The notes beneath the pieces are model-generated. The model did no database searches. It worked only from the letters and a program-made list of their open reading frames with translations, and was not told the origin of the DNA. A stretch of DNA of 34,834 nucleotides, from the NCBI GenBank assembly GCA_012517875.1, contig JAAYUB010000122.1:1-34834 (forward strand). Direction: 5' to 3'. This document shows, in pieces, positions 8,976 to 14,719 of this stretch; the first letter of the stretch is position 1, and every line of letters begins with the position of its first letter. This stretch comes from Acidobacteriota bacterium (GTDB taxonomy: Bacteria; Acidobacteriota; JAAYUB01). The translations under genes were made by a program, and so were the position numbers.

Positions 8976-9005
8976 TTGGGTGACGCCGGGATACCGGTTT
9001 ATAAT
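8976..9005 (+). promoter_or_regulatory. Promoter of the HpnJ-like gene, probably giving a leaderless mRNA
   Basis: A perfect -10 TATAAT (9000-9005) is preceded, after 18 bp, by TTGGGT (8976-8981). The ATG of the next gene starts at 9014, so transcription would begin at about 9012-9014, on or next to the start codon. No Shine-Dalgarno precedes that ATG, in line with a leaderless transcript. Confidence 0.6.
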
Positions 9006-9013
9006 GGCAACGC

Positions 9014-10453
9014 ATGGCCAGAATCCTGATCCTGAATCCTCCGTTCATGGACGATTTCGTCCGATCGGCCCGCTGGGCGGCTCGTTCCCGCGGCCGCGTC
9101 CAGCGTCATCCCGATTACCTGCTTATCGCCACGGCCGTGCTGGAAGCAGCAGGACACGATCTGAGATTCATCGACGGCGCCGCCCTCAATCTGAAACCAT
9201 CGGATATATGGGAAGCGGCGGACGGCTTTCGGCCGGATGTGGCCGTGCTGCACACCACGACGCCCTCCATATACAGCGATATCAGTCTGGCCCGATCGAT
9301 CAAGGGGCGCACCGGGGCGTTCACGGTGTTGGTGGGCAACCACGTCTCGGCCGAGCCGGACGACAGCTTCCGGATCGCTGCCGGCGCGGTGGACCGAATC
9401 GTGCGGGGTGAATACGATTTCATTCTGCGCGAGCTGGTCGAACGGCCGGATGACAAGACCTTAGCCGGAATTTCCTTTCAGGGTGACGGCGGAGTGACGC
9501 ACAATCCGCTGCCTCCGCCGCTGGACGTGAACGAACTGCCGTTTCCCGCCTGGCACCACGTGCGACCGGAGTGGTACCGCGACGCCGGCAAGATGTATCC
9601 CTTTCTCACGCTCCTCTCGGGGCGGGGCTGCTTCGCGCACTGCACCTTCTGTCAGGACCCCCAGCTCATGGTGGGACACCGGCTGCGCATGCGTCGACCG
9701 GAGCTGGTAGTGGACGAAATCGCGCATGATCTGTCACTGTTTCCCGGGCTGCGCGAGATCATGTTCGAGACCGACACCTTTGTGGCCTCGCGCGCCCACG
9801 TCGCGGGCGTGTGCGAGGAGATCCTGCGCCGTGACATCCGGATCGCCTGGAGCTGCAATGCCCGGGTGGACATGGACCTGGACCTGCTCCCGCTGATGCG
9901 GCGCGCCGGCTGCCGGATGCTCATGACGGGATTCGAATTCGGCACCCAGACCGCCCTGGATGCCGTCCGCAAGGGCGTGACACTGGAGCAGAGCGAGGCG
10001 TTCGCGCGCCGGTCGCATGAGCTGGGCTTCATCGTCCACGGTTGTTTCATGATTGGCGCGCCGGGCGAAACCAGGGAGTCGGCTCTTCAGACCATCGCGT
10101 TCGCCAAACGGCTGCCGCTGGACACGATCCAGATTTCGGGGATCTGCGTCTATCCGGGCACCGAGATGTACCGCTGGGCTGTTGCAAACGGCTTTCTGGT
10201 ACCGAGAGACTGGACAGAGTGGATCAGCGCCGACGGCGAGCAGGTCACCCTGCTGAGCTATCCGCAACTCGCGAAATCAGAGATTGACGAGTTGATCGAC
10301 CGCGGCCTGCGCGAGTTCTACCTCCGGCCGCGCCAGCTGCTCCGAATGCTTATGGCGGTGCGTTCCTGGGGAGACGTTCGGCGCAAGGCATACGGGGCGT
10401 GGAGCTACCTGCGGTACAACTTGGAACGGCTGCGGGGGAGGCGCCGGCCATGA
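9014..10453 (+). CDS. B12-binding-type radical SAM protein, HpnJ-like
   Basis: The 479-residue protein has a Rossmann-like B12-binding-type N-terminal domain (about 1-145; VLVGNHVSAEP at 105-115, VRGEYDFIL at 130-138) without an obvious DxHxxG cobalamin motif, then a radical SAM core with C206-x3-C210-x2-C213 (GRGCFAHCTFC). Later segments (ETDTFVA, WSCNARVD, IVHGCFMIGAPGET, ISGICVYPGTEMYRWA) resemble the HpnJ class, which remodels the sugar head group of hopanoids. The true substrate is unknown; no hopanoid gene is in the window. It starts just after a TATAAT box and its stop overlaps the next glycosyltransferase (ATGA), so the product may act on the same glycan or lipid. Radical SAM assignment is firm; HpnJ likeness is from memory of that family. 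Confidence 0.85.
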   Translation: MARILILNPPFMDDFVRSARWAARSRGRVQRHPDYLLIATAVLEAAGHDLRFIDGAALNLKPSDIWEAADGFRPDVAVLHTTTPSIYSDISLARSIKGRTGAFTVLVGNHVSAEPDDSFRIAAGAVDRIVRGEYDFILRELVERPDDKTLAGISFQGDGGVTHNPLPPPLDVNELPFPAWHHVRPEWYRDAGKMYPFLTLLSGRGCFAHCTFCQDPQLMVGHRLRMRRPELVVDEIAHDLSLFPGLREIMFETDTFVASRAHVAGVCEEILRRDIRIAWSCNARVDMDLDLLPLMRRAGCRMLMTGFEFGTQTALDAVRKGVTLEQSEAFARRSHELGFIVHGCFMIGAPGETRESALQTIAFAKRLPLDTIQISGICVYPGTEMYRWAVANGFLVPRDWTEWISADGEQVTLLSYPQLAKSEIDELIDRGLREFYLRPRQLLRMLMAVRSWGDVRRKAYGAWSYLRYNLERLRGRRRP

Positions 10454-11454
10454 AGGTTGCGGTAGTGGTGCCGTGTTTCAACAGCGCCCGATATATCGAG
10501 CGAACGCTTGATGCGCTGCAGCAGTTGGATTCGGGTGGGCACGAATTGGAGTTCGTGCTGGTGGACGACGGGTCCATCGACGACACGGCGGAGCGCATCA
10601 GCCGGCGGGGCGTCACGGTGATTCGGCAGCCGAACGCCGGTCCCGCCGCCGCCCGGAACACCGGTTGGCGCCGGGCTGCTGGTGAGGTGGTCTGTTTCAC
10701 CGATGCCGACTGCGTTCCGCCGCCCGGGTGGGTTGTCGGTTTGCTCGCCGGTCTGGATGCCGCGGACGTGGGGGCAGTGGCCGGCGGTTACGCAGCGGCC
10801 AACGACGATCAACCGCTGGCCCGGCTCATCCAGGCTGAAATCGCCTACCGCCACCGGCGGATGCCCGCGTTCGTAAGGGCCGGGGGCACCTACAACCTGG
10901 CAGTGCGGCGCACCGTGTTGGAACAGGTGGGCGGCTTCGACGAGTCGTTCCCAACCGCCAGCGCCGAGGATAACGACTTGTCGTACCGCATTCGCCAGGC
11001 CGGTTACCGGATTGCCTTCCGTCCCGGCTGCCGGGTGGCCCATCACCACCCGGAACGGATCGGGACGTATCTCCGCACGCAATACATCCACGGCTTCTGG
11101 CGGAGCCGGCTGTACCGCAAGCATCCAACCTTCGTGTCCGGCGACGACTACACCCGGCCGCGGGACATGCTGGATGTCGTGCTGGCGATGGGGATTTCCG
11201 CAGCCGCCCTGCCGGCCGCAGTCGGCGGGCCATGGGCCGGCTGGATGGCGGGTGGCACCGCCGGCGCCCTCCTGTTGCTCGAAGGATGGGCCGCGGCGGG
11301 CGTTGCCCGCGAGGCGCGGGAATTTGGTCTGTGGCCCCTCGGCCTGGCCGCGTTTACACTTCGGGCGTTCGCGCGCATGGCGGGGTGGGTGCTCGGCTTC
11401 CTGACGCCAGGCCTCCGGAGCGGGCGGGGGAACCGCGGGAGGATGCGGCGATGA
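10450..11454 (+). CDS. Family 2 glycosyltransferase with C-terminal membrane segments
   Basis: This 334-residue GT-A fold enzyme transfers a sugar from a nucleotide sugar to an unknown acceptor. The start MKVAVVVPCFNSARYIERTL is typical; nucleotide-binding residues are D39-D40-G, the metal-binding DAD is at 85-87 (CFTDADC), and the E173-D174 pair of SAEDNDLSYRIRQAGYR is the likely catalytic base region. Two hydrophobic segments near 245-275 and 285-310 suggest membrane attachment. The start was chosen at 10450, where ATGA overlaps the stop of the radical SAM gene; an in-frame upstream extension inside that gene is not needed. The next glycosyltransferase again overlaps by ATGA, so the set is translated as a unit. 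Confidence 0.88.
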   Translation: MKVAVVVPCFNSARYIERTLDALQQLDSGGHELEFVLVDDGSIDDTAERISRRGVTVIRQPNAGPAAARNTGWRRAAGEVVCFTDADCVPPPGWVVGLLAGLDAADVGAVAGGYAAANDDQPLARLIQAEIAYRHRRMPAFVRAGGTYNLAVRRTVLEQVGGFDESFPTASAEDNDLSYRIRQAGYRIAFRPGCRVAHHHPERIGTYLRTQYIHGFWRSRLYRKHPTFVSGDDYTRPRDMLDVVLAMGISAAALPAAVGGPWAGWMAGGTAGALLLLEGWAAAGVAREAREFGLWPLGLAAFTLRAFARMAGWVLGFLTPGLRSGRGNRGRMRR

Positions 11455-12161
11455 TCCGGCCGTTCGATCCCCGGGAAGTGCTCTTTCTAATCCCCGCGTT
11501 CAACGAGGAGGGGAATCTCGGCGCCGTCCTGGACGAACTCCACCGCGAGTTTCCCGCGGCGACCCTGCTGGTGATCGACGACGGGTCCACCGATCGGACC
11601 GCTGCCGTGGCGCGCGCCCACGGGGCGATCGTCGTCACGTTGCCGTTCAACATGGGTATCGGCGCCGCCATCCAAACCGGAATCGCGTACGCGCTGGCCG
11701 AAGGATTCCACTGGGTGCTCCGCCTGGACGGCGACGGCCAGCATGATCCGAGCGACATTCACCGCTTCTTCGATCATCTCCGCCGTCAACCGGCGGACCT
11801 GTTGATCGGTTCCCGCTTTCTCTCCCGCGCCGGTTTTCAATCTTCCTGGCTGAGGCGGCTCGCCATCGGTTTCCTCTGCCGGCTGATCCGGACGCTGACG
11901 GGATTTCGGGTGACCGATGCCACGTCGGGGTTCCACCTGTACAGCCACCGGGCCATGCAGCGTCTCTGCCGCCTCTACCCCGACGACTATCCGGAGCCCG
12001 AGGTCATCATCATGCTGTACAAATGGAAGATGTGCGTCGACGAGGTGCCGGTGACCATGCGGGAGCGTTCCGCCGGCATGTCGTCGATCACGTTCCTGCG
12101 CTCCGGGTATTACATGGTGAAAGTGACGCTGGCCATCCTGATCGATATGATCCGCTACTGA
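11451..12161 (+). CDS. Family 2 glycosyltransferase, DPM1/DolP-glycosyltransferase-like
   Basis: At 236 residues it is a compact family 2 enzyme of the kind that moves a sugar onto a polyprenyl phosphate carrier. FLIPAFNEEGNL (12-23), VIDDGSTDRT (41-50), the glycine-rich NMGIGAAIQTG (67-77) and the DxD in RLDGDGQHDP (91-100) are all present; ATSGFHLYS follows. Unlike GtrB or ArnC there are no clear C-terminal membrane helices. The ATG at 11451 overlaps the previous stop by four bases. The 3' neighbour is a DUF2304 membrane protein, a frequent partner of such transferases in polysaccharide loci, which could supply the membrane anchor. The acceptor is unknown. Confidence 0.87.
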   Translation: MIRPFDPREVLFLIPAFNEEGNLGAVLDELHREFPAATLLVIDDGSTDRTAAVARAHGAIVVTLPFNMGIGAAIQTGIAYALAEGFHWVLRLDGDGQHDPSDIHRFFDHLRRQPADLLIGSRFLSRAGFQSSWLRRLAIGFLCRLIRTLTGFRVTDATSGFHLYSHRAMQRLCRLYPDDYPEPEVIIMLYKWKMCVDEVPVTMRERSAGMSSITFLRSGYYMVKVTLAILIDMIRY

Positions 12162-12174
12162 GCCGGAGGTGCGC

Positions 12175-12549
12175 ATGACGTTTGTCCAGATCTTCACCAC
12201 GGCGATCAACGGCCTGCTCCTGCTGGCCATCATTCATTTCCTCAGGCGGGAGAAGCTGAAGGAAAAATACTCCCTCCTCTGGCTGGCCGCCATCGTCTGC
12301 ATCCAGGTGCTCATCCTGTCGGAAGGCTGGCTGAACCGGCTGGCCCAGCTCGTCGGAATCTACTATCCCCCGTCGCTTGTGTTCTATCTGGCGATCCTGT
12401 TCCTGTTCGCGATTGTGCTGCACCAGGGGCTGGCGATGTCCAAACTGACCCGTCAAAATCAGGTGCTGGCCCAGCGGCTGGCTTTGCTGGAAGCCCGACT
12501 GGAGTATCGGTCGACGTTGGGAGACGAGGCGCCGCCGGCTGGGGACTGA
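12175..12549 (+). CDS. DUF2304 small membrane protein
   Basis: The 124-residue protein has three hydrophobic helices (about 4-22, 34-52 and 67-87), then a charged, probably coiled-coil tail (KLTRQNQVLAQRLALLEARL). A charged REKLKEKYSLLWL turn after helix one matches the DUF2304 family, which is often encoded beside polyprenyl-phosphate glycosyltransferases. Its function is not established; a role as partner or flippase component for the upstream glycosyltransferase is inference. The ATG at 12175 was chosen because GGAGG (12165-12169) lies 5 bases upstream. Its TGA directly abuts the stop codon of the convergent asparaginase-like gene with no base between. Confidence 0.8.
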   Translation: MTFVQIFTTAINGLLLLAIIHFLRREKLKEKYSLLWLAAIVCIQVLILSEGWLNRLAQLVGIYYPPSLVFYLAILFLFAIVLHQGLAMSKLTRQNQVLAQRLALLEARLEYRSTLGDEAPPAGD

Positions 12550-13077
12550 TCACTGCCCGCTGTTCTCAATCCGTTCGAAGGTTTTGGCCTGGCGGTTTTT
12601 ACGGACCCGGTCCACGTCGTAGACCTCGTTGTGGAAGACGATGTGGATGCCGGCGGGGAGGAATTTCGTGGCGAACAGCGCCTCGGTGAGGTTCTGAATG
12701 CCGTCGCTGTTCTGCACCACCAGCGGCAGCATGGCGCCGGTCAGGACGATGGGGACCTTGATCTGCGGCAGGTGCGATTTGATGTAGCGGCCGGTGTCCA
12801 CCATTGTGTCCGTGCCGTGGGTGATGACGATGGGCCGGCCGTCTTCCTGGAGGCGCTGGATGGTCTGGGCGATGACCTGCCGGTGCTCGTCGGTCATTTG
12901 GAGGCTGTCGATGTTCATGAGCCGCAGCGAATGCAGCCGGACGTAAGGAAGCCGCAGCGGCGGGAATTCGCGGTCGATCCAGCTCTCGATGTTGTCGATG
13001 CCGCCCTGGACCTCATCGTAGATCTTTTCGATGGTCCCACCCGTGAAGACGATGTTGATGTGATGCATCTGGCTCAT
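12550..13077 (-). CDS. Single-domain L-asparaginase-like protein
   Basis: The 175-residue protein matches only the N-terminal half of L-asparaginases, which are normally about 330 residues with a second C-terminal domain. All N-domain catalytic positions appear present: T15 in TGGTIEK, T89-D90 in ITHGTDTM, and K138 in ALFATK, which aligns with Lys162 of the E. coli type II enzyme. NIDSLQMTDEHR (55-66) is the substrate-side loop segment. It could hydrolyse an amide such as asparagine, or act on an envelope substrate; this is not decided by sequence. The ATG at 13077 overlaps the methyltransferase stop (ATGA), so a long upstream extension in that frame was rejected. Single-domain forms exist as their own subfamily, so it need not be a truncated gene. 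Confidence 0.85.
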   Translation of the reverse strand: MSQMHHINIVFTGGTIEKIYDEVQGGIDNIESWIDREFPPLRLPYVRLHSLRLMNIDSLQMTDEHRQVIAQTIQRLQEDGRPIVITHGTDTMVDTGRYIKSHLPQIKVPIVLTGAMLPLVVQNSDGIQNLTEALFATKFLPAGIHIVFHNEVYDVDRVRKNRQAKTFERIENSGQ

Positions 13078-14048
13078 AGGTGACTCCGTGGGTTCAGGAT
13101 TCGGCGGGCCGGCAGAAAGAACGTGCCGCCGCGGCCGGCCATCGCCTCCAGCACAGCCAGTGGCTGCGCGGCCGCCAGCAGGGAAAAGTATAGCACTTTT
13201 CGGGTCAGCGCCAAGCGGTTGTCGCCGCGGACGGCCATCGCCACGGGGTCCAGGGCGGGAGCCAGCGACGTGGCGATCGCCGCTGCGTTGTCTCGCAGCG
13301 AGAAGAACCGGGGCGGACCGGGTTCGTAACCGGTCCGGCGGAGTAGGTCGGCCAGGGCGCGAGGCCGGAAACTCACCACGTGGCGGGGGATGTCCAGGCC
13401 GCTCCAGCGCCGGCCGAACCAGTGGCACTGCCAGCTGTCCAGGTTGGGAACCTGCAGCAGCAGGGTGCCCCCGGGCGCCAGCCAACGGCCGACGCGGGCC
13501 AGCGCGTCACCGGGCCGCGGCAGATGCTCCAGCACGTGGAAGAGCGTGATGAGGTCGTAGCTCTGTTCGGGCAGATCGGCGGTGTCGATGTCACCGGCGT
13601 GCACCCGCAGTCCGTAAGTGGCCTGGGCCGCTTGGGCGGCATCGGGCGAGACATCGAGTCCTTCGCCCACGATTCCGGTCACCCGGCGAAGCACATGGAG
13701 AAAGGTGCCGCTGCCGCAGCCCACATCGAGGACCTTCGGCGCAGGCCCCGCCAGATGCCGCCGGGCCACGTGAACATGATGGCGCAACACCGTCTCCCGG
13801 TAGACCGTCTCCAGCTTGAGCGAAAGGTCCCGTGGCCGCTCTCGGGCGATCCACCAGTAGGGGCGCGGATAGGCATCCGCGAACGCCCGGGGTTCCGGCA
13901 TTGGGTGCAGGAACGCGCATCGGCAGGTCAGACAGCGGTTCAGGGTATGGACAGCGGACGTCGTGTGAAAGAGGAAATCGGAGTTCTCCAGCCAGCGGCG
14001 GGAGTCCGCAGCCCCGCAGATCGGACAGGCTGGCGGCGACGTGCTCAC
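13074..14048 (-). CDS. Class I SAM-dependent methyltransferase with N-terminal zinc-ribbon
   Basis: The 324-residue protein opens with a probable zinc-binding knuckle pair (C8-x2-C11 and C39-x2-C42), followed by a Rossmann methyltransferase domain: motif I VLDVGCGSGTF (107-117), acidic loop EGLDVSPDA, and the post-motif segment DLITLFHVLEHLPRPGDAL. The pattern CPxCG...C..C followed by DVGCGxGxFL and HVLEHL is common in methyltransferases of polysaccharide or sugar pathways. The GTG start at 14048 was chosen because GTGA overlaps the stop of the upstream glycosyltransferase; a longer start would run deep into that gene. It likely methylates the sugar or lipid handled by its neighbour; the substrate is unknown. 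Confidence 0.87.
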   Translation of the reverse strand: MSTSPPACPICGAADSRRWLENSDFLFHTTSAVHTLNRCLTCRCAFLHPMPEPRAFADAYPRPYWWIARERPRDLSLKLETVYRETVLRHHVHVARRHLAGPAPKVLDVGCGSGTFLHVLRRVTGIVGEGLDVSPDAAQAAQATYGLRVHAGDIDTADLPEQSYDLITLFHVLEHLPRPGDALARVGRWLAPGGTLLLQVPNLDSWQCHWFGRRWSGLDIPRHVVSFRPRALADLLRRTGYEPGPPRFFSLRDNAAAIATSLAPALDPVAMAVRGDNRLALTRKVLYFSLLAAAQPLAVLEAMAGRGGTFFLPARRILNPRSHL

Positions 14049-14719
14049 GGCCGGAACCGCTTCTGGAACAGGAACAGCAAGTTGCGGAAGCCGTCCCGCC
14101 ACGGCTGGAGTTTGATCTCGCCCATCCGGTTCGAGAAGTTGATGGGGATCTCTCGAAATCCGACTTCCCGGTTGCGAATGGCCTCGATCTTGATCTCTTC
14201 CGAAAACGCCATCAGGTCGCTGCGGAGCCGGAACTGCTTCAGAATATCACGGTAGAAGATCCACATGCCCGACTGCGAATCGCGCACCCAGCGGAAGTAG
14301 AGCAGCGACAGGCACAGGCTGAGCACGATGTTGCCGAATTTGTGCTTGAAGGACATGGCCGCGGGATTCTGCACCGGAAACCGGGAGGCCGAGACGAAGC
14401 GGACGCCGGAGTGGAGCAGAGCCTCTATGAGATATGAAATGGCATCCACAGGGTAGGAGTGGTCGCCGTCCAGGGTGATGATGATATCACCTCGCGCGTT
14501 GGCCAGGCCGGTCTTATAGGCCCGCCCATAGCCGCGGATGCTTTCCTGGATGACCGTGGCGCCATATGATGTGGCGATGTCGGCGGTCCGGTCCGTGGAA
14601 CCGTTATCGACGACAAGGATCTCGTCCACGAAATTGGGAATCTGTTTCAAGACGAGCGGAATCCCTTCCTCTTCATTGAGGCACGGGATGACCACTGTGA
14701 TCCGGTTACCCTTGTACAT
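14045..14719 (-). CDS. Family 2 glycosyltransferase, DPM1-like
   Basis: This 224-residue enzyme has the compact GT-A layout of polyprenyl-phosphate glycosyltransferases: ITVVIPCLNEEEGIP (7-21), VVDNGSTDRTADIA (36-49), RGYGRAYKTGLANARGD (62-78) and the metal-binding DGD at 84-86 (TLDGDHSYP). SASRF and a later WIFYRDIL segment complete the domain; a C-terminal hydrophobic stretch is weak. It is first in the minus-strand set with the methyltransferase and asparaginase-like genes. An AGGA site precedes the ATG at 14719 and a promoter lies at 14743-14771. The sugar and acceptor cannot be read from sequence. Confidence 0.88.
   Translation of the reverse strand: MYKGNRITVVIPCLNEEEGIPLVLKQIPNFVDEILVVDNGSTDRTADIATSYGATVIQESIRGYGRAYKTGLANARGDIIITLDGDHSYPVDAISYLIEALLHSGVRFVSASRFPVQNPAAMSFKHKFGNIVLSLCLSLLYFRWVRDSQSGMWIFYRDILKQFRLRSDLMAFSEEIKIEAIRNREVGFREIPINFSNRMGEIKLQPWRDGFRNLLFLFQKRFRP

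Follow-up and report, generated by a model that had tools for sequence, protein, structure and literature searches.

The 34,834-nucleotide contig JAAYUB010000122.1 of an Acidobacteriota bacterium, hereafter the window, carries a four-gene unit (positions 9014–12549) encoding a predicted cobalamin-type radical S-adenosylmethionine (SAM) protein (RSAM), two family 2 glycosyltransferases (GT2s; GTA and GTB), and a small DUF2304 membrane protein. On comparative grounds we propose, with about even confidence, that this unit builds a sugar on a membrane lipid, polyprenyl phosphate being the likeliest carrier, and alters that sugar by radical chemistry. Judged from its sequence, RSAM belongs to a separate conserved clade (clade I) that groups with HpnJ. 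The clade and the gene set are real and conserved, and count as a variant within the HpnJ kind, not as a separate one. An initial annotation of this DNA had read the unit as a possible lipid- or polyprenyl-linked glycan modification route with an HpnJ-like enzyme; such a route is supported, and RSAM is not HpnJ itself.

The gene unit

The unit has the structure initially described: all four frames are present on the + strand, with ATGA overlaps at the first two junctions and 13 bases between the last two genes. RSAM (9014–10453; 479 amino acids) carries a CxxxCxxC motif at residues 206–213 and overlaps GTA (10450–11454; 334 amino acids) at 10450–10453. GTA, a GT2 with one clear hydrophobic segment near its C-terminus (about residues 240–261), is the conserved partner of RSAM and in turn overlaps GTB (11451–12161; 236 amino acids) at 11451–11454. 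GTB resembles polyprenyl-phosphate-sugar synthases of the DPMS/GacI type, has a DGDG motif at residue 93, and ends with the stop codon at 12159–12161. The DUF2304 protein (12175–12549; 124 amino acids) is of the GacJ type with three hydrophobic segments; its start is most likely the ATG at 12175 behind a GGAGG, with the GTG at 12169 given by the open reading frame listing as an alternative. The family assignments hold as well, with HpnJ the best named model for RSAM (PF04055 and PF02310), PF00535 in both transferases, and PF10066 in the membrane protein.

Both family relatives that carry the unit (L039, L040) keep the four genes together and in the same order, which indicates that the unit is coding and not a product of chance. 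Protein identities for RSAM, GTA, GTB, and the DUF2304 protein are 94, 88, 94, and 95% in L039 and 75, 54, 62, and 61% in L040. The window is one contig of a 182-contig draft genome that is 95.93% complete; the nearest named relative of this genome is an Acidobacteria bin (JAGOHA010000003.1).

Placement of the radical SAM protein

RSAM contains a radical SAM domain (PF04055; 59.2 bits) with the CxxxCxxC motif and radical SAM barrel, and its C206, C210, and C213 are invariant in 53 sequences. An N-terminal B12-binding domain (PF02310; 33.8 bits, cut-off 32.1) spans residues 37–138. Against the HpnJ model TIGR03471, RSAM scores 335.4 bits, below the cut-off of 577.6; for comparison, ten proteins of the same phylum were scanned, and the six over the cut-off score 703–781 bits. 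The BchE model TIGR02026 gives 106 bits (cut-off 481.35), and all remaining NCBIfam models give less than that, including the AprD4 model NF033070 (69.3 bits, cut-off 500) and the C-methylase models HpnR (77 bits) and TIGR04014 (72 bits). A score gap also delimits the clade, as its members reach at least 479 bits (the lowest being contig-end fragments), a Lawsonia protein 314, and HpnJ rows 237–282.

Phylogeny places the RSAM clade with HpnJ and not in an unrelated clade. In a first tree of 101 rows, 48 clade members form one clade (100) and 15 HpnJ sequences another (100), and these two group with the Lawsonia plasmid protein (98). With Omnitrophota paralogs added, a second tree recovers a superclade (98) with three branches, the order of which is not resolved by these quick searches, made without bootstrap and with long branches flagged: clade I joined by eight Omnitrophota proteins as its sister group (99), HpnJ together with a single long row (94), and “clade II”, which includes the Lawsonia protein (99). 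L199, labelled clade II by score, falls outside the superclade in the second tree. BchE shares its superfamily and domain order with RSAM, but lies outside the grouping in both trees.

The Lawsonia gene is carried on plasmid 1 of Lawsonia intracellularis (L139; NC_008012.1). Its neighbors include several GT2 genes, two DUF2304 genes, galE, a SIS protein, and several methyltransferases.

Active site and fold

H342 and T371 are present in all rows of clade I (29), the sister group (8), labelled clade II (10), and HpnJ (12). R301 is equally conserved except in labelled clade II, where nine of the ten rows have it. In a comparison set of 36 further B12 radical SAM rows, these letters recur six times at H342, once at T371, and five times at R301, and in neither BchE row. 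A predicted model of RSAM (pLDDT, a predicted local distance difference test score, of 88.5) places H342, T371, and R301 on strands 340–347, 371–376, and 300–308, respectively. Other features are private to the clade: an invariant RGRVQRHP near the N-terminus, F309 (serine in HpnJ and most others), and T253 (aspartate in most others). With its pocket core preserved but some of the surrounding positions altered, RSAM may perform related chemistry on a different substrate.

The solved folds nearest to the model are AprD4 with paromamine (6fd2; Z 36 over 410 residues at 20% identity) and MgmA (Z 32). AprD4 also matches RSAM by sequence (E 1.3e-15).

Relationship to the hopanoid pathway

The literature background was drawn from passages of PMC12583986, PMC13142503, PMC9385802, PMC8327497, PMC8941075, PMC10821137, PMC13331322, and PMC12350378. 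As described there, HpnI adds N-acetylglucosamine (GlcNAc) to bacteriohopanetetrol (BHT), HpnK deacetylates, and HpnJ forms BHT cyclitol ether. RSAM resembles HpnJ in its superclade, its CxxxCxxC motif, its N-terminal B12-binding domain, and its conserved R301, H342, and T371; in addition, HpnJ works beside the GT2 HpnI and RSAM beside the GT2 GTA. True HpnJ identity is nevertheless rejected on the sub-threshold score, the separate clade, and the lack of both HpnK nearby and squalene-hopene cyclase. RSAM further differs from HpnJ in its N-terminal and pocket residues, and its partners are GTA and GacI/GacJ-like proteins.

The initial claim that hopanoid genes are missing stands as far as tested: the squalene-hopene cyclase family PF13243 has no match in the window genome, in a search where controls were positive in 2 of 14 genomes. 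Across the 80 ortholog loci, 50 genomes were searched, and PF13243 was not found over the cut-off in 44 of them, including all 19 chosen as Omnitrophota. The other six comprise five with cyclase-like proteins (G203, G208, G211, G227, G228) and one with weak repeats only (G221). A PIG-L deacetylase beside the Latescibacterota ortholog was considered as a substitute for HpnK and rejected as a general trait, tblastn over all loci returning only one other, weak match.

GTA as the conserved partner

GTA has the conserved residues D85/D87 and E173/D174. In ortholog genomes, its hidden Markov model (HMM) separates candidates cleanly (at least 268 bits versus at most 202). Gene nearness was surveyed in 81 sources (the window, L039, L040, and L061–L138) with GTA, GTB, and DUF2304 HMMs built from members of the same loci, many of which are cut by contig ends. 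On this basis, GTA lies within the fetched RSAM locus in 20 of 34 sources not titled Omnitrophota and in none of the 47 so titled; GTA, GTB, and DUF2304 are all present in eight of the 34. When the RSAM locus lacks GTA, the gene is usually elsewhere in the genome (28 of 31 genomes).

Larger searches gave the same association. Among 199 relatives, GTA of at least 290 bits occurs in 3/3 genomes with an RSAM ortholog versus 0/196 without. Among 193 Omnitrophota genomes, RSAM of at least 620 bits was found in 16 and GTA of at least 290 bits in 26, with 15 in common; GTA is thus present in 15/16 genomes with the ortholog (G366 lacks it) versus 11/177 without. Fisher tests that ignore shared ancestry give p values of 1e-14 for Omnitrophota and 8e-7 for the relatives. 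Absences are soft, since only 8–11 candidates were scored per genome in these searches. In seven of the 11 Omnitrophota genomes with GTA and no ortholog, another HpnJ-like radical SAM protein (312–420 bits) adjoins GTA by contig coordinates; six of these seven fall in clade II, and the seventh (G329) is outside the superclade. Likewise, one relative (G083) has a 277-bit GTA directly after a clade II radical SAM gene, and also holds a true HpnJ.

An origin of GTA from HpnI was rejected, as GTA scores 37 bits with the HpnI model versus 173 with that of MftF. An hhalign comparison of A3 with one HpnI gave 82.8% probability over 162 columns, which we read as the common GT2 core.

The GTB/DUF2304 pair and neighborhoods in other lineages

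The solved chains nearest to GTB are the polyprenyl-phosphate sugar transferases ArnC, sll0501, and DPMS. Its neighbor matches PF10066 at 79.5 bits (cut-off 25.5), and the two genes have the GacI/GacJ-type arrangement, in which a DPMS-like GT2 is directly followed by a three-segment DUF2304 membrane protein, as also in WpsA/WpsB. These pairs make GlcNAc-P-C55 and the small protein raises activity, and in lactococci GlcNAc-P-C55 serves as acceptor for a neighboring cytoplasmic glycosyltransferase (PMC8327497, PMC10821137). A further glycosyltransferase is encoded next to the pair in both cases, WpsC with WpsA/WpsB and GTA with GTB/DUF2304. In contrast, no radical SAM enzyme appears in those systems as these sources describe them.

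GTA, GTB, and DUF2304 accompany RSAM at loci of five further lineages, in varying order. Riflebacteria L128 carries, in this order, a GT-C-like membrane protein, RSAM, a methyltransferase, GTA, GTB, and DUF2304. The GT-C-like protein scores 25.7 bits for PMT_2, slightly below the cut-off; PMT_2-type proteins are also present in the clusters of L064 and L070, and the window's own unit is without a GT-C gene. Such neighbors are consistent with lipid-phosphate-sugar pathways whose final step is export and transfer. The Omnitrophota GTA operon runs S41 protease, GTB, DUF2304, methyltransferase, and GTA, followed by an ATPase and a secretin, and one Omnitrophota genome (G264) has GTA, methyltransferase, and RSAM in one row.

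Methyltransferase genes recur at several of these loci. In Riflebacteria L126 and L128 they separate RSAM from GTA; they adjoin RSAM in L066, and GTA in Omnitrophota, Latescibacterota, and the clade II loci L201 and L202. A methyltransferase common to all loci was considered and rejected, since it turned up in one of 20 additional genomes and was not found in that of the window.

Distribution of orthologs

A scan of genome contigs with three family orthologs found 80 loci at 52–94% identity, 47 of them titled Omnitrophota. Other hosts include Elusimicrobia/Elusimicrobiota, Nitrospirae/Nitrospirota, Acidobacteria, Planctomycetota, Riflebacteria, Sumerlaeota, Latescibacterota, and one Brachyspira, among others. 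Most genomes surveyed are draft metagenome bins, and the Undinarchaeales label of L075 is a possible binning error. The Brachyspira ortholog (L090; Brachyspira catarrhinii Z12) adjoins a GT2 and methyltransferases; its presence in only one of the 26 genomes of the genus search suggests recent acquisition.

In Omnitrophota, the ortholog lies beside aconitase genes in loci such as L087, L102, and L119, and a small ferredoxin is near in 28 loci. This ferredoxin could be the electron donor of RSAM. In nine loci (L062, L063, L064, L065, L067, L068, L069, L070, L073), the ortholog adjoins tandem second and third B12 radical SAM genes that belong to other clades, and part of these loci also hold glycosyltransferases and sugar epimerases.

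Surroundings of the unit in the window

The unit is flanked by rnpA/yidC/mnmE and, on the opposite strand, by an asparaginase-like gene. A TATAAT lies at 9000–9005, nine bases upstream of the RSAM start codon, without a clear ribosome-binding site; on this sequence evidence, the transcript may be leaderless. The asparaginase-like gene (12553–13083, − strand) faces the end of the DUF2304 gene, and its product, about 177 amino acids counted from the likely start MSQMHH, ends after the N-terminal PF00710 domain. Further on, a methyltransferase and a second DPMS/AglJ-like GT2 (13074–14719, − strand) face the unit. This pair has the same place in both family relatives at 58–98% identity, and may be part of the same glycan route.

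In a same-genus genome (G001), neither RSAM nor GTA was found, and the flanking yidC/rnpA region likewise had no long DNA match there. As an assembly gap is therefore possible, G001 was not used as an empty site.

Proposed function and alternatives

The GacI/GacJ-like pair and the tight co-occurrence with GTA give good support to a glycan route on a lipid or polyprenyl carrier. From its family, GTB would place a hexose or N-acetylhexosamine on polyprenyl phosphate, with the DUF2304 protein holding it at the membrane and activating it. GTA, anchored through its C-terminus, would then add a second sugar to the GTB product or to another lipid acceptor, so that the lipid-linked sugar would be assembled at the cytoplasmic face of the membrane by GTB/DUF2304 and GTA. 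Kinship with HpnJ makes a step on the sugar that forms a C–C bond or ring plausible. On the basis of its clade and active-site residues, RSAM would abstract a hydrogen from one of the sugars and rearrange the carbon skeleton, most likely by ring contraction or C–C closure like HpnJ on glucosaminyl-hopanoid. In other lineages, a small methyltransferase may act later as an optional step, as may a GT-C enzyme in export and transfer.

A precedent is the radical SAM calditol synthase (Cds) of Sulfolobales, likened here by description only: in the review consulted, its proposed substrate is a hexose lipid, from which it would form a cyclopentyl head group through ring contraction. In contrast to the lipid proposed here, Cds acts on an archaeal tetraether lipid. 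No description of the RSAM–GTA–GTB–DUF2304 set was found in titles and abstracts of the open-access literature, subscription papers being outside the search.

Several observations weigh against this proposal. In Omnitrophota, the RSAM gene is mostly outside the glycosyltransferase operon, beside aconitase and ferredoxin. Four GTA-bearing Omnitrophota genomes (G311, G293, G419, G381) showed no closely matching radical SAM protein, and GTA of at least 290 bits was not found in nine sister-group Omnitrophota genomes (RSAM 490–559 bits). For the sister group, a GT2 with a GTA score of 154–173 overlaps the end of RSAM by four bases in four of eight fetched loci, and one scoring 127 starts 173 bases after RSAM in a fifth. 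F309 and T253, which together with RGRVQRHP set RSAM apart from HpnJ, are likely pocket residues. Finally, while tblastn found HpnK at the true hpnJ loci L043, L045 (partial), L049, L050, L054, and L140, it gave no match at any clade I locus, which suggests that the substrate logic of HpnJ is not simply copied.

With respect to one of these genomes, a GTB–DUF2304–GTA block is present at L207 (G311:C2:484000-496000), and no radical SAM gene was recognized in the fetched stretch.

The main alternative, which we consider unlikely though not negligible, is that RSAM is a cobalamin-dependent C-methylase acting on a lipid-linked sugar made by GTA and GTB. Most characterized cobalamin-dependent radical SAM enzymes are methylases in the sources consulted, methylation being the commonest reaction of the class, and this too counts against a skeletal rearrangement. 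Ordinary methyltransferase genes are also frequent neighbors of RSAM. However, HpnJ is far nearer by score than either C-methylase model, and the clade groups with HpnJ in both trees.

It is improbable that RSAM and the glycosyltransferases are merely neighbors within variable surface-glycan regions, with RSAM serving an unrelated task. The mostly solitary Omnitrophota ortholog and the tandem radical SAM genes of several loci would agree with this, but GTA tracks the ortholog genome-wide, and in most of the exceptions, as in G083, another HpnJ-like radical SAM gene adjoins GTA. More doubtful still is a radical SAM sugar dehydratase or epimerase giving a deoxy or epimerized lipid-carried sugar: AprD4, a diol dehydratase on the aminosugar paromamine, is the nearest solved fold and also matches by sequence, but a shared fold proves no function, HpnJ is far nearer by sequence, and the AprD4 model score is well below its cut-off. 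AprD4 also differs in that its substrate is a soluble aminoglycoside.

Extending the proposal of a radically modified lipid-linked sugar, HpnJ may belong, as one branch, to a broader family of radical enzymes that convert sugars carried on lipids into carbocycles. Equipped with a GT2 and a polyprenyl-phosphate-sugar synthase of its own, the present branch would give hopanoid-less Omnitrophota, Elusimicrobiota, Nitrospirota, Riflebacteria, and some Acidobacteriota a polyprenyl or glycolipid head group of a cyclitol type not described so far. We hold this wider view tentatively.

Implications

An HpnJ-like annotation in a metagenome should not be taken to show that hopanoids are made. Rearranged carbon skeletons in lipid-linked sugars have precedents in BHT cyclitol ether and calditol. 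Should the clade perform similar chemistry, such sugars would occur much more widely, independent of hopanoids and of archaeal lipids. The RSAM/GTA/GTB/DUF2304 set would then provide a handle for lipid mass spectrometry searches, and HpnJ-type chemistry would become testable on a simpler polyprenyl substrate.

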